A DNA stretch of 64,000 nucleotides. Source: Neobacillus vireti. Lineage in GTDB: Bacteria; Bacillota; Bacilli; Bacillales; Cytobacillaceae. Position 1 is the first letter of the stretch. Each line of letters starts with the position of its first letter. Shown here in pieces: positions 46,467-64,000 of the stretch. The stretch spans positions 62,206 through 126,205 of the forward strand of contig NZ_LDNB01000017.1 in the NCBI RefSeq assembly GCF_001026695.1, in the 5' to 3' direction. Under the pieces are notes generated by a model. It was not told the origin of the DNA. It saw only the letters and a list, made by a program, of their open reading frames with translations, and ran no database searches. The position numbers were made by a program, and so were the translations under genes.

Positions 46467-47237
46467 ATGGAAGATACGAGAGATAAATCGATAATTCAAT
46501 CAGTAGAAAAGGTTGCGGTTATATTAAAACTTTTTACTAAAAAAAAACCAATGTTAACTCTTCACGATATTCACCAAATATCAGGTTTTAGTAAGACGAC
46601 GGCGATGAGGTTTTGTAATACACTTACTAGTATTGGTTATTTAGAAAAGGTGTATATTGGTCAAGTCCCTTATTATCGTTTAGGGATCGAACTTTTTACA
46701 ATAGGTAGCATGGCAATTAATGCGGTTAATATTCCTGAGAGAGCTAAAAAACATCTACAAGAAATCTCAAATCAATTAGAGGATAGCTCCTATTTGTTCA
46801 TTGAGCGTAATAACAAGGCATATTGTATTGATGCCGTTAAGGGGAGCTATTTTATACAGGATGCAACAACCAATATTGGGGATGTTTTACCATTAAATCG
46901 TGGTGGAGCACCTCTTGCAATTCTTGCTAATATGGATACGAGTAGACAATACGAAATCATGGAAACATTTAATCTAAGCAATGATGAAAAAAAATATTTC
47001 TTAAACAGGTTAGAACTTATAAAATCAAATGGATATTCATTTAGTAGTAACGAAGTAAATCAAAGTACTGCCGCGGTAGGGGTTCCTATATTTAACCATG
47101 AAGGAATCGTGGTTTCAGCAATTAGTGTTGGTGGTATAGAGATGAGATTTAGTAACGAGAGACTACCAAAGATTGTGGAAATATTAAAAGAGGCTGCAAA
47201 TAAGTTGTCCCGTGAACTTGGATGGAATGGTCAATAA
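46467..47237 (+). CDS. IclR family transcriptional regulator
   Basis: A 256-residue IclR protein: N-terminal winged helix (SVEKVAVILKLFTKKKPMLT, IHQISGFSKTTAMRFCNTLT, YLEKVYIGQVPYYRLG) and a GAF-like effector domain (about 85-250, with INRGGAPLAILA-type and AAVGVPIFNHEGIVVSAISVGG segments). ATG 46467 follows AGAAGGGATTAC; codons upstream are open but unsupported. It directly precedes the catabolic operons, whose promoters share a TTCCG-N5-CGGAA dyad typical of IclR targets. It is thus the likely pathway regulator. Confidence 0.9.
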   Translation: MEDTRDKSIIQSVEKVAVILKLFTKKKPMLTLHDIHQISGFSKTTAMRFCNTLTSIGYLEKVYIGQVPYYRLGIELFTIGSMAINAVNIPERAKKHLQEISNQLEDSSYLFIERNNKAYCIDAVKGSYFIQDATTNIGDVLPLNRGGAPLAILANMDTSRQYEIMETFNLSNDEKKYFLNRLELIKSNGYSFSSNEVNQSTAAVGVPIFNHEGIVVSAISVGGIEMRFSNERLPKIVEILKEAANKLSRELGWNGQ

Positions 47238-47245
47238 GAGAAGAC

Positions 47246-47280
47246 AAAGCGCTTAGTATACAAAACTAGGTGCTTTTTTA
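47246..47280 (+). terminator. Intrinsic terminator
   Basis: AAAGCGCTTAGT pairs (with wobbles) with ACTAGGTGCTTTT, then TTA. It separates the regulator from operon A. Confidence 0.7.
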
Positions 47281-47349
47281 TTTCTTTACTATTCGTATGA
47301 TGGTGAGCATGAGAAAAAAGTCAGTATTCTGAAAATTTAAAAAAATAAA

Positions 47350-47420
47350 TTGACAACGTTTTCATTTGCGGTTATTATTTTCACATACCGTATCGTGTTA
47401 CTATATTCCGTAATGCGGAA
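47350..47420 (+). promoter_or_regulatory. Operon A promoter with cre and IclR-type dyad
   Basis: -35 TTGACA (47350), 17 bp, -10 TATTAT (47373). TGACAACGTTTTCA (47351) matches cre at 13 of 14 positions and overlaps the -35. Downstream lie a TACCG half-site (47386) and the dyad TTCCG-N5-CGGAA (47406-47420), 20 bp later. The same order and nearly the same distances occur at 55118-55189. Confidence 0.75.
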
Positions 47421-47533
47421 TTCGTATCAAAGACTCTCCATTATTTTAGAAATAATGGGGAGGATAAAGTATGTAAAGTGACTGAAAATTTATACGTACT
47501 TAGCAAACAAATAAAGAGGGGGTATTTTTTTAA

Positions 47534-48556
47534 ATGGAATGCGTTTTATTAAAAGAGGGAAAAAATGTAGTCCTGGATGATAAAGACATACCACAATTAG
47601 GAGAATACGAACTACTAGCCAGAGTGAAGCGAGCAGGTATTTGTGGGACAGATTTAAAGTTATATACAGGAAATTACCATATTGATAGTAAAGCACTTCC
47701 AATCGTTCTTGGCCATGAATTTATCGGTGAGGTGGTAGCCGTTGGCGACAAGGTTACTAAAGTCGCCATAAGTGATCGTATCGTTGCACAGCCGACCTAT
47801 AGTAGCTGTGAAGAATGTACGTACTGTAATCGAGGCGAATTTAACCTATGCAATAACAGAAAACGAATCGGTTTCGATTACGATGGTGTATTTGCTCAGT
47901 ATGTCAAACTGCATGAAAAACAAATTTATCATGTTCCTGATAGTATATCTGATGATGCTGGTGCCCTAATTGAACCGCTAACAGTTGCGGTAAGGGGAGT
48001 TTACAAGACGGATATAAGGCCTACAGATACGGTTCTCGTTATTGGTCCAGGTACAATCGGTTTATTTACGGCCCTTGTAGCAAAACAATTTGGTGCTAAA
48101 GTAATTGTTTGTGGAACACTCGCAGATGCTGAGCGTTTAGAGATTGCTTCCCAAATGGGCGTTGATATGACAGACATGTCCGGAGATTTGCATGAGATGT
48201 TGAGGCGAAAAAAAATAACAGTCGACATTGTGTTTGAATGTTCTGGTAATCCTCACGGGATTAACCTAGGTCTCAATATACTACGTCCAAAAGGTCAATA
48301 TGTTCAAATTGGTACATCCTCAAAGATGCAAAATATTTCTTTTATGGATATTGCATATAAGGAATTAAAAGTAACTGGAAGTATCAGTGCAATAAGAGAA
48401 GATTGGAATACAGCGATTAAATTGATGGAAAAGCTCCAATCAAAAGCGCTGTTAATAGTAAAAAAGTACCTTGAGCTTAAGGATTTCGAAAAGGGTTTTG
48501 AAGAATGCCTTAATAATGGCGGACCGAAGATATTATTTACCCCCTATCCAAAATAA
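47534..48556 (+). CDS. Zinc-dependent alcohol dehydrogenase (MDR family)
   Basis: A 340-residue medium-chain dehydrogenase. Catalytic zinc ligands are in AGICGTDLKLY (Cys) and LGHEFIGEV (His-Glu); the four structural-zinc cysteines are in SCEECTYCNRGEFNLC; the Rossmann motif is VIGPGTIGLFTA. It is close to sorbitol/threonine-type NAD dehydrogenases, oxidising a secondary alcohol or polyol. GAGGGGG lies upstream of ATG 47534. First gene of operon A, ahead of the amidohydrolases and the importer, suggesting that it oxidises the imported compound or an early product. Confidence 0.9.
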   Translation: MECVLLKEGKNVVLDDKDIPQLGEYELLARVKRAGICGTDLKLYTGNYHIDSKALPIVLGHEFIGEVVAVGDKVTKVAISDRIVAQPTYSSCEECTYCNRGEFNLCNNRKRIGFDYDGVFAQYVKLHEKQIYHVPDSISDDAGALIEPLTVAVRGVYKTDIRPTDTVLVIGPGTIGLFTALVAKQFGAKVIVCGTLADAERLEIASQMGVDMTDMSGDLHEMLRRKKITVDIVFECSGNPHGINLGLNILRPKGQYVQIGTSSKMQNISFMDIAYKELKVTGSISAIREDWNTAIKLMEKLQSKALLIVKKYLELKDFEKGFEECLNNGGPKILFTPYPK

Positions 48557-48728: not shown

Positions 48729-49490
48729 ATGATAATTGATGTTCATACCCATCTCTTAACAAATCCATTTTCCGTGAAGGAAGTTGAGGAGGTTTTAGAC
48801 GGGGCCGATAGATTTGGAATAAAAAAGCTATGTGTTGCTTCATTAGGTCCTGGATGCTATTACCCAACCAAACTCATCCATGAACCTACACAGGAACAAT
48901 GCGCTTCCTTCAATGCCGATTTGTTTGAGATTATGAAATTGTATCCCGACCGTATTTGGGGATGGGCATATATCAATCCAGCATATCCTGGAGCAGTCGA
49001 CGAAGTTAAACGGGGCATTGAGGAGTACGGAATGATTGGTGTAAAAATGTGGACAGGAACAAAATGTAATGACCCTAGGTTTTTTCCTGTGGTAGAGGAG
49101 GCCATTAAGTATGGTGTACCGATTTTACAACACACTTGGGATAAAGTAACAGGTTATTTTCCAAATGAATCAAGGTCTTTTGATGTAGCCGATCTTGCAG
49201 AAAAGTATCCTGAGGTGAAAATTGTCATGGCTCATAACGAACGAGCAGTATTAAAAGTGAAACATTGTCCAAATGTTTTTATGGATACAGCAAGTCCGAT
49301 TGCTGAGCTAGGAATGATTGAAAAAGCAGTGGACCATATTGGTGTTGACCGCTTGGTATTTGGATCAGATTGTATTGGTGTAGACTTCGCATCCACAATA
49401 GGTAAAATAATCGGGTCAGACTTACCGGAGGATGATAAGTCAAAAATATTAGGAGAAAATTTCCTTCGGATTTTAGGGAGGGATCAATAA
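48729..49490 (+). CDS. Amidohydrolase family protein (amidohydrolase 2, metal-binding type)
   Basis: A 253-residue TIM-barrel protein of the amidohydrolase-2 (ACMSD/gamma-resorcylate decarboxylase-like) group. Metal-binding marks: MIIDVHTHLL (H6, H8), HTW about residue 137, VMAHNERAV about 168 and GSDCIGVDF (catalytic Asp region). Members hydrolyse or decarboxylate small cyclic or aromatic acids or lactones. AACGGAGGACACGC precedes ATG 48729. The stop TAATG overlaps the next gene, so the two are translationally coupled. Confidence 0.88.
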   Translation: MIIDVHTHLLTNPFSVKEVEEVLDGADRFGIKKLCVASLGPGCYYPTKLIHEPTQEQCASFNADLFEIMKLYPDRIWGWAYINPAYPGAVDEVKRGIEEYGMIGVKMWTGTKCNDPRFFPVVEEAIKYGVPILQHTWDKVTGYFPNESRSFDVADLAEKYPEVKIVMAHNERAVLKVKHCPNVFMDTASPIAELGMIEKAVDHIGVDRLVFGSDCIGVDFASTIGKIIGSDLPEDDKSKILGENFLRILGRDQ

Positions 49491-50284
49491 TGACAAAGCT
49501 TACCTACTTTGACTCAAATATTTTCATCGGTAATTGGCCATTTCATCAACTTAGATATAACAATTTAGAAGGTATTTTTCATCTAATGGAAAGGGTAAAC
49601 ATTGAAAAAGCGTTCATCTCTAGTTTAGATAGTGTATTTTGCATAGACCGTGACATTCCTGATGTTAACCATAAATTATTTAAGACGGTGAAGGAATATC
49701 CAGAAAAATTACTTCCATTTTATACTATTAATCCTAATGTATTTAATAGTAGGGAGTACGTTGAAATGCTGGTTAATAACTGTAATTTACATGGAATACG
49801 TTTGTACCCAACCTATCATGACTATTCCCTCCATACTACCGAGGTAGATGGTATTGCGGAACACGCAAGTGAACTTAATGTTCCAATCTTTATCACTTTT
49901 CGATTTGAAGATGAACGAGTACATCATCCGGTAGCAAAGGTTCCGCCTTTAATCATAGAAGAACTCTCAAAATTCTTGAATAATCATCCGGAAACAACAT
50001 TTATTATTGGTGGAATGAGAATTACTGATGCGGAGGAACTACTTAACCAATTAACTCATCAAAAAGTATTTTTCGAGCTTTCGTTTGTCCAAACTCCTTT
50101 TCGTTCATTGGAACTACTTGTTGAAAAGGTTGGAGTTGACCGAGTCCTGTTTGGTACAGGTCTGCCTTACTGGTACCCAGAATGCACAACGTTAAAATTA
50201 GAAACATCGATTCTTCCTTATGATGACCTCCAAAAAATTGCTAAAGATAATTTCCAAAAAATTATAGACCAACGAGTGAGGTGA
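49490..50284 (+). CDS. Amidohydrolase-2-like protein lacking the HxH metal motif
   Basis: A 264-residue TIM-barrel protein of the same superfamily, but the first-strand motif reads FDSNIFIGNWPFHQLR, with Asp-Ser-Asn replacing His-x-His. Later positions also differ (FITFRFEDER, IIGGMRITDA, VLFGTGLPYWYP), so the usual metal site is largely missing. It overlaps the preceding gene by one base (TAATG). It may form a heteromer with the upstream amidohydrolase as a non-catalytic partner, or use a different mechanism. Confidence 0.8.
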   Translation: MTKLTYFDSNIFIGNWPFHQLRYNNLEGIFHLMERVNIEKAFISSLDSVFCIDRDIPDVNHKLFKTVKEYPEKLLPFYTINPNVFNSREYVEMLVNNCNLHGIRLYPTYHDYSLHTTEVDGIAEHASELNVPIFITFRFEDERVHHPVAKVPPLIIEELSKFLNNHPETTFIIGGMRITDAEELLNQLTHQKVFFELSFVQTPFRSLELLVEKVGVDRVLFGTGLPYWYPECTTLKLETSILPYDDLQKIAKDNFQKIIDQRVR

Positions 50285-50291
50285 AGTAATA

Positions 50292-51170
50292 ATGATTCTC
50301 CAAATACTAATATCAGGAATTTTATTAGGTGGAGTTTATATTTTAGCTAGTATTGGATTGACATTGATATTCGGGGTAGCAAAAGTAGTCAATTTTGCTC
50401 ATGGTGAAATCCTAATGCTTGGGATGTATCTAACGTTTTGGCTATATTCAATATTTAATCTGGATCCTACCTATTCAATTGCTATCGTGATTCCTATCTT
50501 CTTTTTATTAGGAACCTTGATGTACTTGTTTGTCATTCGGCCATCCTTAAATGCTCCCGAACTTACACAGGTTTTTGCGACCTTAGGGTTATCCATTCTT
50601 TTACAAAATCTAGCATTATTACTTTGGGGTGCAGATTATCGAACTGTAAAAACTTTTTACTCAAATACGGCAGTAACAATTAGCCCTGAAATAAGTATCA
50701 GTGTTTCTCGGGTCGTAGCTTTTGTTACTTCATTACTAATTTTGTTAGTTCTTATCATTTTTCTTAAAAAAACGTACATTGGTAAAGCCATTCAAGCTGT
50801 TTCGCAAGATCGCTCAGCAGCCATGCTAATGGGAATAAGTGTGAAAAGAATTTATATGTATGCAGTAGGAATTGGGTGTGCATGTGCGGGACTAGCTGGT
50901 GCCTTGTTAATACCACAATATTATGCATTTCCAACTGCAGGTGTTTCATTTATCCTAATATCCTTCGTTGTTGTTGTTCTCGGAGGGATTGGTAGTATAC
51001 CAGGGGCAATCGTTGGTGGAATTATTGTGGGATTACTGGAATCTATAACTGGTGTTTTTGTCCCAGAACTTAAAGAGGCTTCTTATTTCATATTTTTTAT
51101 CGTCATATTATTAATTAGACCAAATGGCTTGTTTGGTGTAAAAGGTGCAGGAGAGGAGGGCGCACGATGA
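50292..51170 (+). CDS. livH: Branched-chain amino acid-type ABC transporter permease LivH
   Basis: A 292-residue inner-membrane permease with about eight helices. Opening ILISGILLGGVYILASIGL and the family signature VNFAHGEILMLGMYLTFW are typical LivH; VVVLGGIGSIPGAIVGG near the C-terminus contacts the ATPase. It begins seven bases after the amidohydrolase stop. With livM, livG, livF and a binding protein it forms a complete HAAT importer. Because of the operon, the substrate is probably not a simple amino acid. Confidence 0.93.
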   Translation: MILQILISGILLGGVYILASIGLTLIFGVAKVVNFAHGEILMLGMYLTFWLYSIFNLDPTYSIAIVIPIFFLLGTLMYLFVIRPSLNAPELTQVFATLGLSILLQNLALLLWGADYRTVKTFYSNTAVTISPEISISVSRVVAFVTSLLILLVLIIFLKKTYIGKAIQAVSQDRSAAMLMGISVKRIYMYAVGIGCACAGLAGALLIPQYYAFPTAGVSFILISFVVVVLGGIGSIPGAIVGGIIVGLLESITGVFVPELKEASYFIFFIVILLIRPNGLFGVKGAGEEGAR

Positions 51171-52165
51171 ATAAACAGAAAAAGGGAATGCTAATTGGCC
51201 TCCTCATTGTAACTTTGTTACTTCCATATTTAATACAAAATGAATTTTACCTCCATGTTTTAACTTCAGTGCTGGTTTATGCTGGTCTAGCCAGTAGCTG
51301 GAATATCCTTGGCGGATTTGCTGGACAATTATCTTTAGGTCATACAGCTTTTTTTGGAATAGGGGCCTATACTTCGACATTACTTTATGTTTACCTTGGG
51401 ATTTCTCCATGGATAGGAATGCTAGTTGGTGGTTTTTTAGCAGTCATAGTTAGCTTTATAACTCTTTATCCAAGTTTTCGTTTACGTGGCGTATTCTTTG
51501 CAATGGTGACAATATCATTTGGAGAAGTCATTCGAATATTATTCGTTTATTTTAGGAACAAAACGACTATTCCATATGGGGTAACAATTAACTATGAACC
51601 TTCTTTCACAAATATGATATTTGATGGTCCAATGGGCTACTTCTATGTCAGTTTTGTTTACCTACTTATTATTTTAGTGATTTCATGGAAGGTAAAAAAT
51701 AGCCGCCTTGGATTTTTCCTAAATGCATTAAAAGAGAATGATGAGGCAGCACAAGCACTTGGAGTTCCAACTAGTGCCTCCAAGTTTAAAGCACTTGCAA
51801 TCAGCGCCTTTTTTACAGCGATTGGTGGGACAATATTAGTTCAGAATATTCTTTATATTGAACCTGAAAGCGCCTTTTCCACCTCTATATCTACGGAACT
51901 TGCTCTAATTTCAATTATTGGTGGGATTGGTACAGTAGCTGGTCCAGTTATTGGGGCTATCATATTAATTCCATTGGGTGAATCTCTAAGAGCTTTGTTT
52001 AGTGGTTCTGTACAGGGATTACACTTGGTACTCTATGGAGTGCTATTAATGGTTGTTGTCTTAAAGAATCCAAACGGGATTATGGGCTTTATTTCCTCAT
52101 TCAATAAGAAAAGGAAGAAAAAAAGAGAAGTACAACTTGAGGAGGTACCTGATGTTAGAGGTTAA
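51167..52165 (+). CDS. livM: Branched-chain amino acid-type ABC transporter permease LivM
   Basis: A 332-residue permease with about nine helices and the LivM marks SWNILGGFAGQLSLGHTAFF and GGIGTVAGPVIGA. The C-terminus is highly basic (KKRKKKREVQ). ATG 51167 overlaps the LivH stop (ATGA), indicating coupled translation. Pairs with LivH as the transmembrane channel of the importer. Confidence 0.93.
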   Translation: MNKQKKGMLIGLLIVTLLLPYLIQNEFYLHVLTSVLVYAGLASSWNILGGFAGQLSLGHTAFFGIGAYTSTLLYVYLGISPWIGMLVGGFLAVIVSFITLYPSFRLRGVFFAMVTISFGEVIRILFVYFRNKTTIPYGVTINYEPSFTNMIFDGPMGYFYVSFVYLLIILVISWKVKNSRLGFFLNALKENDEAAQALGVPTSASKFKALAISAFFTAIGGTILVQNILYIEPESAFSTSISTELALISIIGGIGTVAGPVIGAIILIPLGESLRALFSGSVQGLHLVLYGVLLMVVVLKNPNGIMGFISSFNKKRKKKREVQLEEVPDVRG

Positions 52166-52868
52166 TAATCTGGTGAAAAGCTTTGGCGGCTTACAGGTGA
52201 CTAAAAAAGTAAGCTTTGAAGTAAAAAAAGGAGAAATATTTGGAATTATTGGACCAAATGGTGCTGGGAAAACAACCATGTTCAACCAAATTTCTGGATT
52301 CATTAAACCAGACAGTGGATCGATTACTTTTAAAGGAAATTCAATTGAAAAAAGGTCTCCAAAGGATATTTGTAAACTGGGTATTGGTAGGACGTTTCAA
52401 ATAGCACAACCCTTTCCCAAAATGTCAGTTCTTGAAAACGTGATGGTTGGGAGTTTGTTAAGAACAAAATCTATTAATCAAGCAAGAGAAAAGGCAAAAG
52501 AAGTTTTAGATTTTGTACAACTTAATGTTCCTTATGATACACCTTCTTCAAACTTAACGATTTCTGATCGAAAAAGATTAGAAGTGGCGAAGGCGCTTGC
52601 AACGGAGCCAGAGTTAATTCTTTTGGATGAAGTAATGGCCGGATTGAATCAAACTGGTGTGAAAGAATTTATTAATCTCATTTTCGAATTAAAAAAACGT
52701 GGAACAAGCGTTTTAATTATCGAGCATATTATGGAAGCTATGATGACTCTATCAGACAGAATTCTTGTACTAAATTATGGAGAGGAAGTATTAACCGGAA
52801 AACCTCAAGAAGTTGCGAATAATCCAAAGGTAATTGAGGCCTATTTGGGAGATGAAATCCATGCTTGA
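52152..52868 (+). CDS. livG: ABC transporter ATP-binding protein LivG
   Basis: A 238-residue ATPase: Walker A GPNGAGKTTMFN, Q-loop near IGRTFQIAQPFP, a variant signature LTISDRKRLEVAKALA (SDRK in place of SGG/SGQ), Walker B LILLDEVMAGL and the H-loop IIEHIMEAM. ATG 52152 follows GAGGAGGTACCTG and overlaps the LivM end by 14 bases. It powers the importer together with LivF. The altered C-loop is worth noting, though LivG proteins often vary there. Confidence 0.92.
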   Translation: MLEVNNLVKSFGGLQVTKKVSFEVKKGEIFGIIGPNGAGKTTMFNQISGFIKPDSGSITFKGNSIEKRSPKDICKLGIGRTFQIAQPFPKMSVLENVMVGSLLRTKSINQAREKAKEVLDFVQLNVPYDTPSSNLTISDRKRLEVAKALATEPELILLDEVMAGLNQTGVKEFINLIFELKKRGTSVLIIEHIMEAMMTLSDRILVLNYGEEVLTGKPQEVANNPKVIEAYLGDEIHA

Positions 52869-53565
52869 TATAAAAAATATCGATGTGTTTTATGGTGATG
52901 TTCAAGTTCTCTTCGACGTTTCCTTACAGGTGCGACCAGGTGAAATAGTAGCCCTTGTTGGTGCAAATGCAGCGGGGAAATCCACTACTTTAAAAACAAT
53001 CTCTGGTTTGTTAAAACCAAAAGCAGGAGAGATACTTTTTCATGAGAAGAACATCCATACATTGGATTCAGACAAAATTGTTGAAAAGGGAATTATCCAA
53101 GTTCCCGAAGGGAGGAGGCTATTTCCAAGGCTCTCGGTTGAAGCAAATTTAGAATTAGGGTCATATCCAAAACGAGCTAGGGCTAAAGCTCAAGATAATC
53201 TAAAAAACATGTATGAAATATTTCCACAATTGTATGATCGAAGACATCAATTAACCGGTTCATTAAGTGGTGGGGAACAACAGATGTGTGCGATAGCAAG
53301 AGGTTTGATGTCGATGCCTGAGGTATTAATGGTGGATGAAACATCCTTGGGACTATCACCACTATTGGTGAAACATACAATCAGGACAATCAAGGAAATT
53401 AATGAATTGGGTACCACTATTTTACTTATCGACCAAAATGTAAATTATGCGCTTCGAATAGCCCACAGAGCGTATGTTTTAGAAAATGGAAGAATTGTAA
53501 TGCAAGGAGAAGGTAATTCTTTATTAGAAGATCCTTATCTAAGGAAAGCTTATTTAGGTATATAA
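52861..53565 (+). CDS. livF: ABC transporter ATP-binding protein LivF
   Basis: A 234-residue ATPase with Walker A VGANAAGKSTTLKT (Ala in place of Gly before the second Gly), signature LSGGEQQMCAIARGL, Walker B VLMVDETSLGLSP (Thr where Pro is common) and H-switch replaced by LLIDQNV, as is usual in LivF. ATG 52861 overlaps the LivG stop (ATGCTTGA). Completes the ATPase heterodimer. Confidence 0.92.
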   Translation: MLDIKNIDVFYGDVQVLFDVSLQVRPGEIVALVGANAAGKSTTLKTISGLLKPKAGEILFHEKNIHTLDSDKIVEKGIIQVPEGRRLFPRLSVEANLELGSYPKRARAKAQDNLKNMYEIFPQLYDRRHQLTGSLSGGEQQMCAIARGLMSMPEVLMVDETSLGLSPLLVKHTIRTIKEINELGTTILLIDQNVNYALRIAHRAYVLENGRIVMQGEGNSLLEDPYLRKAYLGI

Positions 53566-54965: not shown

Positions 54966-55011
54966 AAGAACCTATTTTTGATATACATTTTCAAAAATAG
55001 GTTCTTTTTAT
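54966..55011 (+). terminator. Intrinsic terminator, end of operon A
   Basis: AAGAACCTATTTTTGA pairs with TCAAAAATAGGTTCTT, then TTTAT. A perfect 16-bp stem closes operon A. Confidence 0.9.
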
Positions 55012-55189: not shown

Positions 55190-55217
55190 TCATGTGGGCG
55201 TAAAGGAGATGAATGTA

Positions 55218-55979: not shown

Positions 55980-56015
55980 GCGAGGAGACTAATGAAATGA
56001 AAGGTGGATGTCCAT

Positions 56016-56993
56016 TTGAAAGCAGTACTTGTGGATGAAAGAAATCAAAATCTTTTTATAGATAATGTAAAGGAACCAATACCTAAAGAAGGAGAATTGC
56101 TTGTAAAAATCAAAGCTACTGCCATTAATCGGGCAGATCTCCTTCAGCGTAAAGGATTATATCCTCCTCCTCCCGGTGCCCCAACAATTCTTGGATTAGA
56201 AATGGCTGGGGTGGTAGAAAAAGTGGGAACTGGAGTATCAAGTTGGAAGGAAGGAGATTGTGTTTCAGCTTTATTACCTGGTGGTGGATATGCAGAAAAG
56301 GTAGTTATTCCTGCTGATATGGGTATGAGAATACCAGAGACGATGTCCTTCGAACAAGCTGCGGCGATTCCAGAAGCATTCCTAACAGCCTATTTAAATC
56401 TTGTTGAAATTGGTCAATTGACATCCGGAGAACATGTTCTTATTCATGCGGGTGCTAGTGGAGTTGGAACAGCTGCGATACAGATATCAAAGGAAATAGG
56501 TGCTACTTCTATTGTAACCGCTGGTTCTGACGAAAAATTACAGCGTTGCTCAGTTCTTGGGGCGAATTACATAGTAAATTATAAGGAAGCGGATTTTTCG
56601 GAAAAAGTACAGAAAGTTACGAACGGTAAGGGAGTTCAGCTCATTCTTGACTTTGTTGGGGCTTCCTACTGGGATAGAAATATTAGGTCAATTGGGGTCG
56701 ATGGAAGATGGATACTCGTTGGATCTCTAGGGGGACGGGAAGTTTCCAATGTTAATTTGGGTCCATTCCTGCAGAAGCGTTTACAGTTTGTTGGTTCAAC
56801 CCTAAGGTCAAGGACCACTGCATTTAAAATTGAATTAACACGTAAATTTGAGGCCTTCTCGAAAGAAAAATTTTCAAATGGCTCATTAGCTCCCATTATT
56901 GATCGTGTGTTTGATTGGCACGATGTAGCTGATGCGCACAGGTATATGGAGAGCAACCAGAATATTGGGAAGATTGTCTTGAAGGTGAAATAA
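56016..56993 (+). CDS. Quinone oxidoreductase-like NAD(P)H enoyl reductase (PIG3/MDR type)
   Basis: A 325-residue zinc-free MDR protein: MKAVLVDERNQ, INRADLLQRKGLYPPPPGAP (the PIG3/QOR signature), LIHAGASGVGTAAIQ cofactor loop and a C-terminal FDWHDVADAHRYMESNQNIG. These enzymes reduce quinones or alpha,beta-unsaturated carbonyls with NADPH. TTG 56016 is chosen (AAAGGTGG eight bases upstream, and homology begins there); a GTG at 56004 is open too. Lies 36 bases after the SDR gene. Confidence 0.9.
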   Translation: MKAVLVDERNQNLFIDNVKEPIPKEGELLVKIKATAINRADLLQRKGLYPPPPGAPTILGLEMAGVVEKVGTGVSSWKEGDCVSALLPGGGYAEKVVIPADMGMRIPETMSFEQAAAIPEAFLTAYLNLVEIGQLTSGEHVLIHAGASGVGTAAIQISKEIGATSIVTAGSDEKLQRCSVLGANYIVNYKEADFSEKVQKVTNGKGVQLILDFVGASYWDRNIRSIGVDGRWILVGSLGGREVSNVNLGPFLQKRLQFVGSTLRSRTTAFKIELTRKFEAFSKEKFSNGSLAPIIDRVFDWHDVADAHRYMESNQNIGKIVLKVK

Positions 56994-57007: not shown

Positions 57008-58444
57008 GTGATTAAAAGTTTGGTAAAAAAGAAGTTACTTATTGATGGTCAATGGGTAGAAGCAAAGGAATATAAAAGCCTTATTTCACCTTACTCTGGT
57101 GAGGAAATTAGTAAAATCCCTGTTGCCTCGGTTGAGGAAGTAGAGATGGCGATTGAAGCGGCTTACAATGCAAGATCAGTAATGGGGAAAATGGCAGCAC
57201 ATCAACGCTCCGCTATTTTGGAGAAATTAGCCGTTTCTTTAACCACTAAAGCAGAAGAAGCAGCCGAAATAATCGTTTCCGAAGCAGCAAAGCCAATTGA
57301 AGCTGCTCGTGTTGAAGTAGCACGTACGATTCAAACGTATAAATTTGCGGCTGAAGAAGCAAAACGGATTAGTGGTGAGACCATTCCATTAGACGCTGCA
57401 CCAGGAGGCGAAGGAAGGATAGCGTATACAGTACACGAGCCATTAGGTGTCATTGGTGCAATCACTCCATTTAATTTTCCCATGAATCTTGTTGCACATA
57501 AAATTGGTCCTGCCATTGCTACTGGCAATACGATTGTGCTAAAACCAGCATCACAAACGCCTTTATCGTCATTCTTCATTGGAGAATTACTGGTAGAGGC
57601 AGGCTTGCCTGCCGGTGCACTAAATATCATAACCGGAAGTGGAAGTCTAATTGGAGATAAGATTGTTAGAGATAGGCGTATTAAAATGATTACCTTTACA
57701 GGAAGTCCAACAGTTGGGATTGATATTCGAAATAAAGCAGGGTTGAAGCGTGTTACACTTGAGCTTGGCTCCAACGCAGCCGTTATTATTGATGACGGTG
57801 TAAGCCTTGAAAAGGTAATTCCACGTTGTGTAACGGGAGCCTTTTCCTATCAAGGTCAAATATGTATTTCACTACAAAGAATCTACGTCCATGAGAATCT
57901 TTATGATACCTTCGTTGAAAAATTTGTAGCTGAGACAAAAAAATTAAAGTTAGGTAATCCCCTAGACCCTTCTACAAATGTATCTGCCCTTATTAATCCG
58001 AATGAAACTGCAAGAGTGGTGGAGTGGATTCAGGAAGCCCAAAATGGCGGGGCAAGGATTGAAACGGGTGGTTCAGTTGAAGGAAATATTCTTCAGCCAA
58101 CGGTTCTCGTTGCTGTAAAACCGACAGTAAAAGTCTCCTGCCAAGAAGTATTTGCTCCAGTCGTAATTATTGAAAAATATAGTTCAATTGATCAGGCAGT
58201 CGATAGGGTGAATGATTCCCGTTATGGTCTACAAGCTGGGGTTTATACAGAAAACATCCACACTGCCCTTGATGTAGCAGAGAAACTTCATGTAGGCGGT
58301 GTACTCATCAACGATATTCCAACATTTAGAGTCGACAATATGCCATATGGGGGTGTAAAGGAAAGTGGAATGGGACGGGAAGGAATTAAATATGCTGTCG
58401 AAGAGATGACGGAACTAAAGCTCATTGTCTTTAATCGTAACTAA
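57008..58444 (+). CDS. Aldehyde dehydrogenase family protein
   Basis: A 478-residue NAD(P)-dependent aldehyde dehydrogenase. Substrate anchoring N in GAITPFNFPMNLV, general-base E252 in LELGSNAAVII, catalytic C286 in SYQGQICISLQR and the C-terminal YGGVKESGMGREG. Close to the lactaldehyde/glyceraldehyde-type (non-phosphorylating) ALDH group. It probably oxidises the aldehyde released by the ThDP enzyme encoded next. AGGAGGAAATCGA precedes the GTG start. Confidence 0.93.
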   Translation: MIKSLVKKKLLIDGQWVEAKEYKSLISPYSGEEISKIPVASVEEVEMAIEAAYNARSVMGKMAAHQRSAILEKLAVSLTTKAEEAAEIIVSEAAKPIEAARVEVARTIQTYKFAAEEAKRISGETIPLDAAPGGEGRIAYTVHEPLGVIGAITPFNFPMNLVAHKIGPAIATGNTIVLKPASQTPLSSFFIGELLVEAGLPAGALNIITGSGSLIGDKIVRDRRIKMITFTGSPTVGIDIRNKAGLKRVTLELGSNAAVIIDDGVSLEKVIPRCVTGAFSYQGQICISLQRIYVHENLYDTFVEKFVAETKKLKLGNPLDPSTNVSALINPNETARVVEWIQEAQNGGARIETGGSVEGNILQPTVLVAVKPTVKVSCQEVFAPVVIIEKYSSIDQAVDRVNDSRYGLQAGVYTENIHTALDVAEKLHVGGVLINDIPTFRVDNMPYGGVKESGMGREGIKYAVEEMTELKLIVFNRN

Positions 58445-58509: not shown

Positions 58510-60252
58510 ATGAATAATTTAACAGAAACCCATAAGGAAACGGATGATTCAATAAAGGAATTAACAAATGCGCAGAGATTTGCTCTAGCTTTAAAGCGAA
58601 ACAGTGTGAAGTATATATTTGGACAAAGCAACCCGCAAACGATTATGTTAGCATGTGCAGATCTTGGAATCGAACAAATCGGATTTAGACAAGAGAATGC
58701 TGGTTCATACATGGCTCAAGCCTATGCGATGTGTTCAGGTTCGGTGCCCGTTGTAGCCGCACAAAATGGACCTGCAGCGACATTATTAGTTCCAGGTTTA
58801 GCAGAATGTTTAAAAGCTTCTCACCCGGTGGTTGCACTTGTGGACGATGTCCCAATTTCAGAAGAGGAGAAAAACTCATTTCAGGATCTTGACCATATAA
58901 AGCTATTTTCAGGAGTCGCAAAATGGGTGAAAAAGATCCCTTTAGAAGCAAGAATTGAAGATTATGTAGACATGGCCTTTACTGCGGCTGCAAGTGGAAG
59001 ACCTGGTCCAGCTGTCTTACTTTGCCCAAAAGATCTTACATTTGACACGAAGAAAAATCCAGTAAGAACGGAAAGAAAGGCATCGCTGGGAAATTATCCT
59101 TTAGACAGAACCACCGCAGATTCTGAAAGAATCGAAGAGGCAGCAAAACTCCTTGTAAATGCGGAGCGACCTTTTATTTATGCAGGTGGTGGCGTGATTT
59201 CATCACGTGCGACAGATGTTTTACGACAAATTCAGGAAGAATGCTCTATCCCGGTAGCAACTACCACTATGGGAAAAGGCTCGGTTGATGAAGAGCACGC
59301 GTTGACAATGGGACCAATTGGTTATTACATGGGCAAAGGTGGGGCCACAAAATATTTAAAGCCAATGGTACAAACTGCTGATGTTATCTTATTAGTTGGC
59401 AATCGAACAAATCAGAATGGAACAGATTCATGGTCATTATTTTCAAAAGATGCAAGCATCATTCATATCGATATTGATCCAATGGAAGTTGGTAGAAACT
59501 ATGAATCACTAAGGTTAGTAGGAGATGCGAAGCTAACATTAACTGCACTAAAAAATGCACTATTAAGAAATAGTTTGGATAAAAGAACAAAGGCACGTCC
59601 ATCGATTGAAGAAACAATTGAAAAAGCAAGAGTTGCTCATATTGAAGAGGCGAAAACAATTCAAAATACAGACGTCTCACCAATTAAAGTAGAAAGATTC
59701 CTAGCTGAGCTTGAAAAACAGTTATCAGATGATCATATCATTGTTGCTGATGCTTCTTTTTCATCCATATGGCTGGCAAACTATATCAAAGCAAAAGGGA
59801 ATCGGAAATTTATCTTTCCTAGAGGACTAGCTGGTCTGGGCTGGGGTCTTCCATTGGCAATGGGGGCAAAGGTAGCCCAACCGGATAGGAAGGTTTTTTG
59901 TCTTGCCGGTGATGGCGGTTTCGCTCATGTTTGGAGTGAACTTGAAACATGTAAGCGTCACGGAATAGAAGTTGTTGTTGCAGTAATCAACAACGAGGTT
60001 CTTGCCTATCAAAAATTAGCAGAGCTCGCTCGCTGGGGAAGGAATACATCTGCTTGCGATTTGACAGCAGTAGACCATTCGAAAGTGGCGGAGGCATGTG
60101 GTGTTAAAGGAATCCGGGTTGATTCTTCAGAGAAAATAGCAGGAGCTTTGAAAGAGGCATTTGAAACAAAAGGTTCTGTTGTCCTAGATTTGATTTCAGA
60201 TCCTACATCTATTCCACCACTACCGTTTATGAGTGTACTTCAAAATGTGTAA
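58510..60252 (+). CDS. Thiamine-diphosphate-dependent enzyme, acetolactate synthase large-subunit-like
   Basis: A 580-residue ThDP enzyme with the three acetolactate-synthase-like domains: Pyr (conserved Glu E62 in FRQENAGSYMA), central FAD-like domain (PFIYAGGGVISSRA) and PP domain with GDGGFAHVWSELE (G467-D468-G469) and N494/N495 of the GDG-N metal motif. No regulatory subunit gene is near, so true branched-chain biosynthesis is unlikely; relatives decarboxylate 2-oxo acids or cleave 1,2-diketones. Flanked by aldehyde dehydrogenase and reductases. AAAAGGAGATTAG precedes the ATG. Confidence 0.88.
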   Translation: MNNLTETHKETDDSIKELTNAQRFALALKRNSVKYIFGQSNPQTIMLACADLGIEQIGFRQENAGSYMAQAYAMCSGSVPVVAAQNGPAATLLVPGLAECLKASHPVVALVDDVPISEEEKNSFQDLDHIKLFSGVAKWVKKIPLEARIEDYVDMAFTAAASGRPGPAVLLCPKDLTFDTKKNPVRTERKASLGNYPLDRTTADSERIEEAAKLLVNAERPFIYAGGGVISSRATDVLRQIQEECSIPVATTTMGKGSVDEEHALTMGPIGYYMGKGGATKYLKPMVQTADVILLVGNRTNQNGTDSWSLFSKDASIIHIDIDPMEVGRNYESLRLVGDAKLTLTALKNALLRNSLDKRTKARPSIEETIEKARVAHIEEAKTIQNTDVSPIKVERFLAELEKQLSDDHIIVADASFSSIWLANYIKAKGNRKFIFPRGLAGLGWGLPLAMGAKVAQPDRKVFCLAGDGGFAHVWSELETCKRHGIEVVVAVINNEVLAYQKLAELARWGRNTSACDLTAVDHSKVAEACGVKGIRVDSSEKIAGALKEAFETKGSVVLDLISDPTSIPPLPFMSVLQNV

Positions 60253-60294
60253 GAGTATTAAAGAAAATTCAAGATTGATATGGAAGACAGTAGA

Positions 60295-61389
60295 ATGAGT
60301 GGGAAAAAGGTATTAATTATTGGAGCGACCGGACTAGTTGGCCATGCGGCACTTAAACATTTCAGCACCCAGGAGGATTGCAATGTTATTTCTGTATCTC
60401 GTAGGACACCAGAACAATCTTACGGAGCAAAGCACATCTCTGTTGATTTAAATAATGAGAAGCAGTGCTCGGAAGTATTCGGGAGTATGAATGATATTAC
60501 ACATATTGTTTATTCGGCCCTATATGAAAAACCAGATGATCTAATCTCAGGCTGGGTGGACCAGGAGCAAATTGATACGAATTCACGAATGCTCCGCAAT
60601 GTGTTCGAACCATTGGAACGTTCCTCTAAAGACCTGAAGCATGTAACCTTAATGCAGGGTGCCAAAGCTTATGGAGTACATGTAAAATCGATTCAAAACC
60701 CCGCTCGTGAGGGCAAGTCAGAGATGTACGAACAACCAAATTTCTATTGGTTACAAGAGGATTATATAAAAGAAAAACAAAAAGGGAAGGATTGGAATTG
60801 GACTATTTTTCGGCCCGCAGTCATTTTTGGTGAATCAATCGGTAGTCCGATGAATCTTCTTACAGCATTTGGTGTGTACGCCGCTCTATTGAAGGAAGAA
60901 GGAAAGCCGCTTCATTTTCCTGGTGGAGTCGAAACCATTCTTGTTGCCACCGATGTTGATCTGCTCGCGCGGGCGATAGCTTGGGCAGGTGAATCAGAAA
61001 AAGCAGAAGGTGAAGCATTTAATATCACAAATGGGGATGTATTTGTCTGGTCAACATTATGGCCCACCTTAGCTGAAACTTTGGGTATGGAGCCGGGTGA
61101 GCATGTTCCTCTATCGCTAACAGAGGAAATCCCTAAACGTGAGGTAGAATGGAGACACATTTGTGAGAAACATAATCTTGTTGCGCCGGGGATAAAAGAT
61201 TTTGTCGGTTTGTCCGTAGAATTTGCCGACCGATACTTCGCCTACGGGCAAAGAGAAATGCGCTATCCACCATTATATTCTGATATTAAGCTGCGACAAG
61301 CAGGCTTTCATGAGTGTATTGACACGGAAGAAATGTTTATCAAATGGTTAAAATTGTTCCAGGAAAAAAGACTTTTACCTCAAAACTAA
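60295..61389 (+). CDS. PRISE-like (progesterone 5-beta-reductase/iridoid synthase family) SDR
   Basis: A 364-residue extended SDR: VLIIGATGLVGHAALKHF nucleotide motif, a VTLMQGAKAYGVHV segment and EMYEQPNFYWLQEDYIKEK, which holds the unusual active-site Tyr of the PRISE family (Y..QED), then FRPAVIFG and GEAFNITNGDVF. PRISE enzymes reduce the C=C bond of enals and enones with NADPH. ATG 60295 has GGAAG upstream; ATG 60280 is also open. Last gene of operon B. Together with the PIG3-like gene it suggests an unsaturated carbonyl intermediate. Confidence 0.83.
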   Translation: MSGKKVLIIGATGLVGHAALKHFSTQEDCNVISVSRRTPEQSYGAKHISVDLNNEKQCSEVFGSMNDITHIVYSALYEKPDDLISGWVDQEQIDTNSRMLRNVFEPLERSSKDLKHVTLMQGAKAYGVHVKSIQNPAREGKSEMYEQPNFYWLQEDYIKEKQKGKDWNWTIFRPAVIFGESIGSPMNLLTAFGVYAALLKEEGKPLHFPGGVETILVATDVDLLARAIAWAGESEKAEGEAFNITNGDVFVWSTLWPTLAETLGMEPGEHVPLSLTEEIPKREVEWRHICEKHNLVAPGIKDFVGLSVEFADRYFAYGQREMRYPPLYSDIKLRQAGFHECIDTEEMFIKWLKLFQEKRLLPQN

Positions 61390-61436
61390 TCTTCCTATCA
61401 TATAGGAAAAACTATATAATTATTCTTACTTTTTTT

Positions 61437-61494: not shown

Positions 61495-61544
61495 TTGTCA
61501 ATAAATATAATTTATCAACAAATTATTGATCCCTATTTATTTCT

Positions 61545-62198
61545 TTATCTAAAATCTTTCAATGTCATTTGCTTAATAGTTTCGATGTGATCCTCCATAA
61601 GATTTTGCGCTAAAAGGATATCTGAATTTAAAAGCGCACTTAGAATTTCTTTATGTTCGTTATTTGCCTGCCGCGGTCTTTCCTGGGAGTGAGCAATCAT
61701 GACACCAATCCAGTTAATTTGAGCTTCAAGTGACTCCATCATTTTTATTAAGCGGTTGTTTCCTGAATAGGTTATTAGGGTTTTGTGAAGATTTCTATCG
61801 GACTGAAAAAAGGAGTTGAAGTCCCCTGAATCGATATCGTGATCAACTTCCAGGACATTTTGATAAATTTTTTCTATAATTGAGCGCGGCATATTTGTCA
61901 TTGATAATTTTATTGCATGCCTTTCCAGCGCTTTTCTTACTTCATATATTTCCTCAATGTCTTTTACATTTGGTTGACTAACAAATGTGCCAGACCTGCT
62001 TTTTACATCCACTAAACCATCTTGAGAGAGTAGTTGCAATGCGTCTCTCACAGGAGTTTTACTGACACCCAACTCATTTGCGATTTCATTATAATCAATT
62101 CTTGTCCCCGGTGGTAATTCATTATTTACTATTTTATTCCTCAAAAAGTAATAAATCTTTTCATTTAAATTACGGTTATCGAAAGCAGCATTTATCAT
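61545..62198 (-). CDS. GntR family regulator, FCD (FadR) subfamily
   Basis: A 217-residue GntR/FadR protein: KIYYFLRNKIVNNELPPGTR, IANELGVSKTPVRDALQLLS (recognition helix), SRSGTFVSQP, then an all-helical FCD domain with a metal site (ALERHAIKLS, SDRNLHKTLI, EHKEILSALL). The start is the ATG ending at 62198, eight bases from GGAGG; two earlier ATGs overlap that site. Divergent from the oxidoreductase at 62335, whose promoter carries an AT-rich dyad it likely binds. The effector is probably an organic acid. Confidence 0.9.
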   Translation of the reverse strand: MINAAFDNRNLNEKIYYFLRNKIVNNELPPGTRIDYNEIANELGVSKTPVRDALQLLSQDGLVDVKSRSGTFVSQPNVKDIEEIYEVRKALERHAIKLSMTNMPRSIIEKIYQNVLEVDHDIDSGDFNSFFQSDRNLHKTLITYSGNNRLIKMMESLEAQINWIGVMIAHSQERPRQANNEHKEILSALLNSDILLAQNLMEDHIETIKQMTLKDFR

Positions 62199-62244
62199 AT
62201 TCATTTCCTCCATATATAAAAATATATTTTATTTTCAGAAATTA

Positions 62245-62290
62245 TTGACAACTAAAATTATTGGTATTAATATCTAATATATCAGATATT
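62245..62290 (+). promoter_or_regulatory. Promoter with GntR-type operator
   Basis: -35 TTGACA (62245), 17 bp, -10 TAATAT (62268). AATATCT-N8-AGATATT (62269-62290) overlaps the -10 and the start region. Position between the divergent GntR gene and the oxidoreductase supports repression by GntR. Confidence 0.7.
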
Positions 62291-62334
62291 ATATATCAAC
62301 GCTAGATAATATCATTGCAAAAGGAGGAAATTTT

Positions 62335-64000
62335 TTGAAAAGTATAGCACTATTTGGATTAACGGGTCAGGGGGTTGAAACTGCCGGTGAAATCCTTTCA
62401 AAAGTTATTGAATCCCTTGGATATACTCATCGAAATTGGCGTGATTTTTCAACCATCATTCGTGGTGGAAATACTTCTTTTGAGATTTATATTGCCGATA
62501 AGTTTGAAACTGAATCCCCGCCAAGAATGGAAGAAATCGATTTGGCCATTGTTTGGACCGATGAAGGTGTCGATCGGTATTTATCCAGGTTAAAAGATAA
62601 GTCCATGATATTTGGTCCTAATAATGTTAAGAGCATACCAAGTGAGCATCAAGAAAATCCTCCTAAACTTGGATTTAACGTTTGGTCTTTAGGGATTATA
62701 TGTGGACATCTAGGTATTCCGTATCAACAGGTATTGAAAGAGGTGGAAATGAAATTTAAAAAGGAGAAAAATACCGATTTATTCGAGGCAGGTTATCAAT
62801 TGGGATTAACAGTTTTATCTGGTGAACCATTAATCGACCTTGGGATTGAAAATGTAACCATCTCTGGAAATGATGCATTATGCCTTGGGGGAATTGCCGC
62901 AGATGTAAGGTATTATTACGGATATCCAATAACTCCAGCTTCCGAAATATTGGAGAACTTCTCAAAGTGGCTGCCGCCTTTAGGGGGAGGAACCTTTCAG
63001 GTAGAAGATGAGATAGCAGCAATCCATGCTGCATTAGGATGCAGTTATGCCGGTAAACGTACATTTGTTGCAACTAGTGGACCTGGATTAGCGTTAATGA
63101 CCGAAGGGTTGGGTTATGCAGCGGCAACAGAAATCCCACTGGTGTTAGTAGATAATCAACGCGGTGGACCTTCAACTGGAATGCCAACCAAAACCGAACA
63201 AAGTGATTTATTACACCTTATGAATGCAGGACATGGGGAATTTGCCCGTATCCTACTCACCCCAACAAGTGTGTTAGATTGTATCGTCACAATTCAAGAA
63301 GCACTCAACCTCTCAGAATATTATCAATGCCCCGTGATTATTGCATTAGATTTAGATCTTGCACTTAGGAAGATATCCATTCCATGGGAAAAAGTTGAAA
63401 GCGCTATCAGGTCTGTTGAAATCGACCGTGGACCTACTATTTTAGAATCACAAATTGAAGGAACTTATAAAAGATTTGAAGCAGTAGGCAGTTCTCCTCC
63501 ACTTCGAACTGTTCCTGGGGTAAAAGGTGGAGCATACGTAGCCAGTGGAGATGAGCATGATGAAAGAGGCTTAATGGAACCTGACTTTAAAAAGGTTCGA
63601 AGTACATTGCATATCAGAAGGTTAAATAAGGCTAACTCCATTCGATATAATAGACCCTTCTCCACAATCGGTGATAAAGACGCCCCAATTACTATCATTG
63701 GAACAGGGGCAATGGGAGAATTAATTGAAAACTTTGTAAAGGATAACCCTAGTGTTTATCAAGGCTTGCTCATACGTCAGCTTGCTCCTTTACCAAAGGA
63801 AGAATTAACAGTAGCATTGAAAAATTCCAAGAGAATTGTTGTCGCAGAGTATAATGCTAAAGCCCAAATACGAACTATTTTAAAACCTGGGTTAGAGAAT
63901 AAAGAAGTTCATTCACTTTTAAGGTTTGATGGTGAACACTTTACTGACAAAGAATTTAATGAAGAAATCTTTACCATTTTAAACGAAGTTACAAGTAATC
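62335..64000 (+). CDS. 2-oxoacid:acceptor oxidoreductase, fused gamma-alpha subunit (KorA-like), 5' part
   Basis: Starts at TTG 62335 after AAAGGAGGAAA and stays open to the window end (555 codons). The first ~180 residues are a gamma domain (IALFGLTGQGVETAGEILSK, FSTIIRGGNTSFEIYI); the alpha/Pyr domain follows (YYYGYPITPASEILENFS, EDEIAAIHAALGCSYAGKRT, TSGPGLALMTEGLGYA), with a later transketolase-C-like part (ITIIGTGAMGELIE). It oxidatively decarboxylates a 2-oxo acid to acyl-CoA with ferredoxin as acceptor; a beta subunit should follow outside the window. Confidence 0.88.
   Translation, partial: MKSIALFGLTGQGVETAGEILSKVIESLGYTHRNWRDFSTIIRGGNTSFEIYIADKFETESPPRMEEIDLAIVWTDEGVDRYLSRLKDKSMIFGPNNVKSIPSEHQENPPKLGFNVWSLGIICGHLGIPYQQVLKEVEMKFKKEKNTDLFEAGYQLGLTVLSGEPLIDLGIENVTISGNDALCLGGIAADVRYYYGYPITPASEILENFSKWLPPLGGGTFQVEDEIAAIHAALGCSYAGKRTFVATSGPGLALMTEGLGYAAATEIPLVLVDNQRGGPSTGMPTKTEQSDLLHLMNAGHGEFARILLTPTSVLDCIVTIQEALNLSEYYQCPVIIALDLDLALRKISIPWEKVESAIRSVEIDRGPTILESQIEGTYKRFEAVGSSPPLRTVPGVKGGAYVASGDEHDERGLMEPDFKKVRSTLHIRRLNKANSIRYNRPFSTIGDKDAPITIIGTGAMGELIENFVKDNPSVYQGLLIRQLAPLPKEELTVALKNSKRIVVAEYNAKAQIRTILKPGLENKEVHSLLRFDGEHFTDKEFNEEIFTILNEVTSN

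Follow-up and report, generated by a model that had tools for sequence, protein, structure and literature searches.

The 64,000-nucleotide stretch of Neobacillus vireti DNA analyzed here (hereafter the window; G000:C9:62206-126205 of the 5.3-Mb host genome G000) contains a unit of 14 genes, all on the plus strand between positions 46467 and 61389, which runs from an IclR-family regulator to a PRISE-type enone reductase and includes a thiamine diphosphate (ThDP) enzyme and a LIV-type ABC importer. We read this unit as a catabolic regulon for one small oxygenated carbon source, in which the ThDP enzyme would cleave a carbon-carbon bond, and give this reading a probability of roughly one in two. 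The parts are of known kinds, and for their combination we found no description in the open-access literature, in line with the initial annotation, which knew of no pathway with this gene set. Labels beginning with G or L are our handles for genomes and loci.

A catabolic unit around a ThDP enzyme with its own LIV importer had been proposed by the initial annotation, and the gene set, its order and its shared promoters support this. The genes it listed all exist as open reading frames with domain matches and are contiguous, the permease and ATPase genes being assigned through annotated LIV genes, and its single regulator can be refined to the IclR family (Table 1). Operon A comprises a zinc alcohol dehydrogenase (ADH), the amidohydrolase-2 family proteins AHS1 and AHS2 and a contiguous importer of two LIV permeases, two LIV ATPases and a Peripla_BP_6 substrate-binding protein (SBP); operon B comprises a short-chain dehydrogenase/reductase (SDR), a quinone/enone oxidoreductase (QOR), an aldehyde dehydrogenase (ALDH), the ThDP enzyme and PRISE. 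Conservation of gene order, suggested earlier as a check, was found in the congener G142, which carries all 14 genes in identical order with 73-91% protein identity and other genes on both flanks (AHS1 90.5%, ThDP enzyme 85%, SBP 82%, IclR, ALDH and PRISE 78% each, SDR and QOR 76% each, AHS2 72.7%). The 14-gene order is not due to chance, because it recurs in G142, and parts of it are also found in Rhodobacterales, Bordetella and rhizobia. Smaller sets stay together in other congeners: ADH-QOR-ThDP in G102 and G127, and ADH-SDR-ALDH-ThDP in G180, whose cluster also begins with IclR. With the window's own genome counted, AHS1 and AHS2 were each detected in 2 of 61 genus genomes (E <= 1e-20), PRISE in 3 of 61 (E <= 1e-60, one copy in another context) and the ThDP protein in 6 of the 193 genomes of the family sample (E <= 1e-120).

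Operons A and B very likely form one regulon, because the same conserved operator stands at both promoters in G000 and in G142; this shared perfect operator also answers the doubt raised earlier about their co-induction. The promoter scan by itself was uninformative (60 promoter-like sites vs 54 in shuffles). Both -35 regions lie inside TTGACAACG(T/C)TTTCA, which has perfect window matches only at promoters A and B, and the cre-like string with up to two mismatches gave three window matches vs 0.41 expected. Operators A and B are the only perfect copies of the palindrome ATTCCG-N5-CGGAAT in the whole window (seven copies with up to two mismatches vs 2.59 expected), and the gap from -10 to operator is 26 bases at all four promoters of the two genomes, each of the G142 promoters also having a perfect operator and a cre-like site. 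Genome-wide, the perfect palindrome occurs at five places in G000, at two in G142 (upstream of the ADH and SDR genes) and at a single place in G127; G102, G180 and G052 have no copy. Two of the other three G000 copies fall within open reading frames, and the third lies in a gap where convergent genes meet. From base composition one would expect about 0.2 copies in a genome and 2e-5 across the two upstream gaps. The G180 ADH promoter has a site with one mismatch, and no site with at most one mismatch was present in the G102 and G127 stretches. Aligned without gaps, promoters A and B agree at 46 of 81 bases at best, compared with at most 40 elsewhere in the window. The encoded IclR protein is presumably the binder of the palindrome, and the pair could serve as a reporter for substrate screening, which would make the substrate question directly testable.

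The conserved unit ends with PRISE at 61389. The initial annotation had included the GntR gene and the 2-oxoacid:ferredoxin oxidoreductase gene that follow, and both fall outside: neither GntR nor the KorA-type gene had a match in the 38-kb G142 stretch, to which this comparison was confined and for which KorB was not a query, and no perfect shared operator adjoins them. GntR and KorA/KorB were rejected as members on these grounds.

The ThDP enzyme belongs to the subfamily NF004772/PRK06112, whose database name is acetolactate synthase catalytic subunit, and has the domains PF02775/PF00205/PF02776. We compared its active-site columns across 89 family members (80 contig loci, 4 plasmid loci, the window, G142, G102, L109 and L110, with G127, G180 and G052 entering solely as L028, L029 and L032). 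The acceptor Arg and Trp of yeast acetohydroxyacid synthase (AHAS), which we take to be R380 and W586 in these roles, are lost throughout: the Arg column holds Asn in 89/89 members and the Trp column Ala in 87, Ser in one and Thr in one. The column of yeast V583 and AcHACL E493 holds Gln in 78 members, including the window enzyme (Gln501), and Glu in 11. Cofactor positions are retained, with the activating Glu in 88 of 89 (Asp in one), Gln at the AcHACL Q128 column in all 89 (window Gln125) and the cofactor Lys likewise in all 89 (window Lys138). At the Arg, Trp and Val positions, the host genome's own biosynthetic AHAS (L002), to which the window enzyme is 27% identical, has precisely Arg, Trp and Val; the control L003 (PRK08322, named acetolactate synthase) has Lys, Thr and Glu, and L004 a gap, Gly and His. 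L109's second ThDP enzyme has Ser at all three. These four distant controls are only 23-27% identical, so that the columns are less sure there. In PMC13327070, the E493 position, which holds an acid/base residue in several cleaving ThDP enzymes, is Glu, Asn or Thr in AcHACL, pyruvate decarboxylase, cyclohexane-1,2-dione hydrolase and benzaldehyde lyase, and Val or Ile in AHAS, glyoxylate carboligase and pyruvate oxidase (POX); Gln is absent from the table rows examined in that paper. Taken together, the columns suggest that an AHAS reaction can be argued against more firmly than any single lyase reaction can be argued for, and the acetolactate synthase label of PRK06112 is probably wrong. Acetolactate synthase proper was rejected for the loss of the acceptor Arg and Trp in 89/89 members. 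We found no description of the PRK06112 reaction in the open-access literature.

The genomic surroundings of the family were surveyed at 84 loci, namely the best 80 of 323 places in contigs with a relative (E <= 1e-3), which may include other ThDP families, and 4 plasmid loci; relatives at E <= 1e-80 occur in 158 plasmid records. Genes were called by codon score (clusters 39 and 53 being ADH and cluster 24 acetoin-dehydrogenase-like), and all co-occurrence counts are lower bounds given contig ends and neighborhoods of 7 genes or 9 kb. Within 7 genes of the ThDP gene we found SDR at 41 loci, ADH at 21, dihydroxyacetone kinase (DhaK) at 20, ALDH at 16, a LIV-type SBP at 15 and QOR at 11, and in these counts DhaK never coincided with ADH, QOR or the LIV-type SBP. 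Closest in make-up to the window's cluster are those of two Rhodobacterales plasmids (Pseudohalocynthiibacter and Sulfitobacter), with ThDP, LIV, SBP, ADH, SDR and QOR genes together, and of two Bordetella species with the order ThDP-LIV-SBP-ADH-cyclase-SDR. All 11 Glu-bearing members lie near a family III CoA transferase, and DhaK accompanies 10 of them, which suggests a 2-hydroxyacyl-CoA lyase branch; the remaining 10 of the 20 DhaK loci have Gln. In our ThDP tree, built by a quick method without bootstrap, the Glu members imply four changes under parsimony, of which starred branches force at least two, and the LIV-ADH contexts are scattered. The L015 CoA transferase has formyl-CoA transferase as its nearest match, under the cutoff, and a route to dihydroxyacetone and formyl-CoA is possible at the DhaK-linked loci.

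Further arrangements were seen around ThDP relatives. L015, L017, L049, L059, L061, L063, L069 and others combine a relative with CoA transferases (A/B and/or family III) and DhaK, mostly together with DhaL and LacI, and with sugar ABC, MFS or TRAP transporter genes. L109 (5203-8583) and L110 (5239-8627) carry, in divergent orientation to their ThDP-LIV operon, GntR, a further and only distantly related ThDP enzyme (25% identity in L109) and an SMP-30/gluconolactonase-like gene. The anaerobic Clostridia loci L035, L038 and L039 have a relative with an FMN-reductase-like gene, MatE, symporter-like genes and ALDH, and B12-binding-domain proteins, two each in L038 and L039 (the domain was shown for L035; names are partly by sequence).

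Both AHS1 and AHS2 match PF04909, as the earlier designation of two amidohydrolases implies, but only AHS1 has the metal ligands (5/5 vs 0/5 in AHS2, scoring the HxH motif, two further His and Asp). Two independent amidohydrolases were rejected, as AHS2 lacks all five AHS1 ligands. We aligned ten such pairs (the window, G142, three of G538, G590, G801, G825 and two halved haloarchaeal proteins), assigning the copies by hand as partner 1 or 2. The first partner has all five ligands in 10/10 pairs; the second has none in 7 of 10, 5/5 in G590 and 4/5 in both G801 and G825. On two haloarchaeal plasmids AHS1- and AHS2-like halves are fused into proteins of 567 or 565 residues. These fusions (L111 10001-11704 and L112 8001-9698) have a second half without metal ligands, and aldose 1-epimerase and sulfatase genes lie nearby. 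The order sample of 348 genomes, which evidently omitted G142, yielded AHS1 in one genome (E <= 1e-35), and the phylum sample of 398 yielded it in six (E <= 1e-20). Four of seven Bacillota stretches (L128-L131) have sugar-type ABC genes, named by sequence, near AHS relatives that are single copies or two near-intact partners, and no such genes were present in the three degenerate-partner stretches (G538, L125-L127). We found no description of a hydrolase/pseudo-hydrolase pair in the open-access literature, in which no search was aimed at the pair itself.

The SBP scores 126.6 bits vs a cutoff of 477 for the amino-acid subfamily model, and the solved structures closest to it are LIV-type chains, 8wch being the best match, which pointed to no particular ligand. 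Over its full length it is 54% identical to its Pseudohalocynthiibacter counterpart, 53% to that of Sulfitobacter, 59% to that of Bordetella and 37% to that of Sinorhizobium. The ThDP enzymes of the Rhodobacterales and Bordetella clusters are 47-50% identical to the window's, so that the 53-59% identity of their SBPs points to a shared ligand. PRISE resembles progesterone 5beta-reductase (E 3e-39), and its K129 and Y156 fall on the catalytic pair of that enzyme in the alignment, presumably Lys147 and Tyr179, in agreement with the printed chain positions. In PMC11643720, these two residues are placed in motifs V and VI, and the reaction of the family is given as reduction of carbonyl-activated C=C bonds. 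PRISE relatives occur in 48 plasmid records, and we examined the surroundings of four, together with the congener G106. Those of Methylobacterium and Azospirillum lie among LIV importers and CoA-dependent catabolic genes; the Blastomonas relative has a cyclase-family gene, an adenylate-forming enzyme and an acyl-CoA dehydrogenase nearby; and the Priestia relative has none of a LIV importer, CoA-dependent genes or such catabolic neighbors. In G106 (L145 6207-19501), a PRISE relative 61% identical to the window's lies in an acyl-CoA-type catabolic cluster with acyl-CoA-dehydrogenase-like genes, which stand in pairs, MaoC-like genes, one thiolase-like gene and one old-yellow-enzyme-like gene (names by sequence).

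In the pathway that we propose, the IclR protein would bind the palindrome and respond either to the substrate or to an intermediate formed early on, CcpA would repress both operons, and A and B would be induced together. The importer may bring in a hydroxylated acid, ketone or lactone, of which AHS1, with AHS2 as a non-catalytic partner, would hydrolyze a lactone-like or similar bond, with PRISE and QOR as possible reductases of conjugated C=C bonds. An alpha-hydroxyketone or 1,2-diketone would arise as Zn-ADH and SDR oxidize adjacent hydroxyls; the ThDP enzyme, acting as a lyase or hydrolase and not as an acetolactate synthase, would cut the C-C bond between the oxidized carbons; and ALDH would oxidize the freed aldehyde to an acid entering central metabolism. 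The conversion to acyl-CoA put forward in the initial annotation is unsupported, because the 14 genes encode neither a CoA ligase nor a CoA transferase or thiolase, and acyl-CoA formation inside the unit was rejected for that reason.

Several other readings assign the substrate or the ThDP reaction differently. An alicyclic enone, ketol or acid is a tentative possibility: PRISE and QOR would reduce it, ADH and SDR would form a cyclic 1,2-dione, the ThDP enzyme would open the ring in the manner of cyclohexane-1,2-dione hydrolase, and ALDH would turn the resulting oxo acid into a dicarboxylate. Two enone-type reductases fit a cyclic substrate, PRISE retains its catalytic Lys and Tyr, and four of the five examined PRISE relatives (Methylobacterium, Blastomonas, Azospirillum and G106) have CoA-dependent catabolic genes around them, joined in two cases by a LIV importer and in one by an old-yellow-enzyme-like gene; however, the fifth (Priestia) lacks such neighbors, and the window unit has no CoA enzymes. 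Cyclohexane-1,2-dione hydrolase has N484, also an amide, at the position of the window's Gln (PMC13327070), yet the window enzyme is less similar to it (E 3e-39) than to AHAS (8e-58). For an acyclic polyhydroxylated acid or lactone, AHS would open the lactone, ADH/SDR would give a keto acid, the ThDP enzyme would release a C2-C3 hydroxyaldehyde and ALDH would oxidize it. The kinship of ALDH with lactaldehyde dehydrogenase and of ADH with threonine/scyllo-inosose dehydrogenases, all under cutoff, is consistent with this, as are lactonase-type genes beside related clusters (PTE family at 4/84 loci, SMP-30/gluconolactonase in L109 and L110), a GlcD-like oxidase, under cutoff, that ends the S. meliloti cluster, and the aldose 1-epimerase genes near the haloarchaeal AHS fusions. 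PRISE and QOR would have no clear job in such a route, though, and the sugar-ABC genes accompany single or near-intact AHS copies (4/7 stretches), whereas the three degenerate-partner pairs of G538 show none. We also know of no LIV-type binding proteins for sugars, which likewise counts against an acyclic substrate, and we consider it doubtful.

Simple decarboxylation of a 2-oxo acid, with ALDH oxidizing the resulting aldehyde, is a rather unlikely role for the ThDP enzyme: the ALDH gene lies within operon B and position 501 is polar, like the Glu of pyruvate and indolepyruvate decarboxylases (PMC13327070), but the enzyme matches AHAS-type synthases, BbmA and glyoxylate carboligase best, and not decarboxylases, and ALDH is within 7 genes at only 16/84 loci. 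A true acetolactate-synthase-like carboligase, performing a catabolic ligation as in glyoxylate carboligase, would agree with the NCBIfam subfamily name and score and with the kept cofactor residues (Glu 88/89, Gln and Lys 89/89); given that the acceptor Arg and Trp are lost and Gln/Glu replaces Val/Ile in 89/89 members, while the AHAS of the same genome (L002) has the expected Arg, Trp and Val, we regard it as improbable. A 2,3-butanediol or acetoin pathway was left aside: transketolase-type pairs are annotated near the Paracoccus copy (L016) and an E1-like gene, named by sequence, starts at the edge of the G052 stretch, but acetoin-dehydrogenase-like genes are within 7 genes at only 3/84 loci.

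Against our own reading, a catabolic regulon with ThDP C-C cleavage, stand a number of observations. Its pathway, substrate and activities are all read from sequence. The cre-like string is presumed to be a CcpA/cre site from its likeness to the consensus, with one mismatch, and the IclR protein is assigned to the palindrome solely from position and conservation. Perfect palindromes are about 20 times commoner in G000 than predicted (5 vs 0.2), and such inverted repeats therefore have other causes too; because they exceed the simple composition model, the argument for one regulon draws on position and conservation. AHS1 and AHS2 occur in only 2/61 genus genomes and PRISE in 3/61, and their roles may therefore be peripheral. 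ADH and SDR are neighbors at some of the ThDP loci only, and 20 of the 84 loci have a quite different context of CoA transferases and dihydroxyacetone kinase. A polar residue in the column of Gln501 is not exclusive to the family, with Glu in L003, His in L004 and Ser in the second enzyme of L109. According to PMC13327070, some carbanion-protonating enzymes have Leu or Ile there, and changing E493 to Gln slows AcHACL.

A wider, speculative proposal is that PRK06112 would be a family of catabolic ThDP lyases acting on hydroxy-carbonyl or dicarbonyl compounds; that the window's branch would pair with diol-oxidizing ADH/SDR and an IclR-controlled importer; that the alphaproteobacterial and Erwiniaceae branch, with CoA transferases, DhaK and, in 11 members, Glu, would be a 2-hydroxyacyl-CoA lyase yielding dihydroxyacetone and formyl-CoA; and that AHS1-AHS2 would be a new two-subunit type of hydrolase. 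If this were true, a ThDP subfamily across Bacillota and Pseudomonadota would carry a wrong annotated reaction, and the window would offer a compact, co-regulated bacillus system for finding the correct one.

The features of the unit and its borders are collected in Table 1. Downstream of GntR and KorA lie KorB, an amino-acid-dehydrogenase-like gene, an SDR, an EutQ-like cupin, a PutP-like sodium symporter and a DAO-type oxidase, and the region (window 62335-64000 plus L007 1-6500) looks like a second, separate catabolic unit. In another cluster farther on, L007 13982-15439 encodes an HpaB-like flavoenzyme (TIGR02309, under cutoff) with AMP-ligase-like, 3-hydroxyacyl-CoA-dehydrogenase-like and thiolase-like neighbors, named by similarity. 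Just upstream of the G142 cluster (L018 4665-5932) are open reading frames that read as reverse-transcriptase/group II intron-like, preceded by an LsrF-like gene. Elsewhere in the window, two short frames resemble helicase fragments (35255-36238 and 37569-38009) and one (31511-32665) has many Trp/Pro-rich repeats of about 20 residues, all three read by eye.

Table 1. Features of the 14-gene unit and its borders, in window positions.
Feature	Position	Strand	Basis and remarks
IclR-family regulator	46467..47237	+	PF09339 + PF01614; first gene of cluster in G142 too
Terminator-like hairpin 3' of IclR	47246..47276	+	similar hairpin in G142
Promoter A, TTGACA-17-TATTAT	47350..47378	+	cre-like TTGACAACGTTTTCA at 47350-47364
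Operator A, ATTCCG-TAATG-CGGAAT	47405..47421	+	26 bp past -10
Zinc ADH (threonine/scyllo-inosose dehydrogenase-like)	47534..48556	+	PF08240, PF00107; under NCBIfam cutoffs
AHS1, amidohydrolase-2 family	48729..49490	+	PF04909; metal ligands 5/5
AHS2, amidohydrolase-2 family, putative pseudo-hydrolase partner	49490..50284	+	PF04909, 43.4 bits vs cutoff 26.4; metal ligands 0/5
LIV-type ABC permease (LivH-like)	50292..51170	+	46% identical to annotated S. meliloti LIV permease
LIV-type ABC permease (LivM-like)	51167..52165	+	similarity to other LIV genes
LIV-type ABC ATPase (LivG-like)	52137..52868	+	TTG start listed; true start maybe slightly downstream
LIV-type ABC ATPase (LivF-like)	52834..53565	+	TTG start listed; true start maybe slightly downstream
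LIV-type SBP	53593..54882	+	PF13458
Hairpin between operons, AAGAACCTATTTTTGA...TCAAAAATAGGTTCTT then T-run	54966..55006	+	by eye; similar one at same place in G142
Promoter B, TTGACA-18-TATATT	55118..55147	+	cre-like TTGACAACGCTTTCA at 55118-55132
Weaker operator B copy	55154-55170		2 mismatches
Operator B, ATTCCG-CAATT-CGGAAT	55174..55190	+	26 bp past -10
SDR oxidoreductase	55194..55979	+	PF13561; GTG start listed, maybe ATG 55209 or TTG 55218
PIG3-type quinone/enone oxidoreductase (QOR)	56004..56993	+	TIGR02824, 394.5 bits vs cutoff 296.8
ALDH, nearest lactaldehyde dehydrogenase	57008..58444	+	NF040648, 547 bits, under cutoff 650
ThDP enzyme, PRK06112 subfamily, proposed C-C lyase	58510..60252	+	NF004772, 780.4 bits vs cutoff 673
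PRISE-type 1,4-enone reductase	60280..61389	+	PF22917, 55.8 bits vs cutoff 27; last gene of unit
GntR gene	61545-62213	-	outside unit
KorA-type 2-oxoacid:ferredoxin oxidoreductase gene	from 62335, past window end		KorB next; outside unit

Among known systems, AHAS shares with the window enzyme the fold family and the columns of the cofactor Glu, Gln125 and Lys138, and differs from it in the acceptor Arg and Trp, which are replaced, in Val where the window has Gln501, and in the catabolic gene context. Azoarcus cyclohexane-1,2-dione hydrolase is likewise a POX-family enzyme of ThDP-dependent C-C cleavage with an amide at the carbanion-protonating position, but its sequence similarity to the window enzyme is low. 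The ThDP lyase cluster of PMC7176365 is catabolic and has its lyase beside alcohol and aldehyde dehydrogenase genes; Glu occupies the E493 position in 11 of 89 family members, whereas the window protein has Gln and its unit no CoA ligase or transferase. Plant PRISE (progesterone 5beta-reductase/iridoid synthase) agrees with the window protein in PF22917, in similarity (E 3e-39) and in the aligned Lys and Tyr, but its 'phenylalanine clamp' residue F153 falls in an alignment gap. Finally, the Pseudohalocynthiibacter, Sulfitobacter and Sinorhizobium clusters share the ThDP-LIV-ADH-SDR-QOR core, which in Bordetella lacks QOR; in these clusters GntR replaces IclR, the stretches examined contain no AHS pair or PRISE, and other accessory hydrolases (SMP-30 lactonase, cyclase family) are present.

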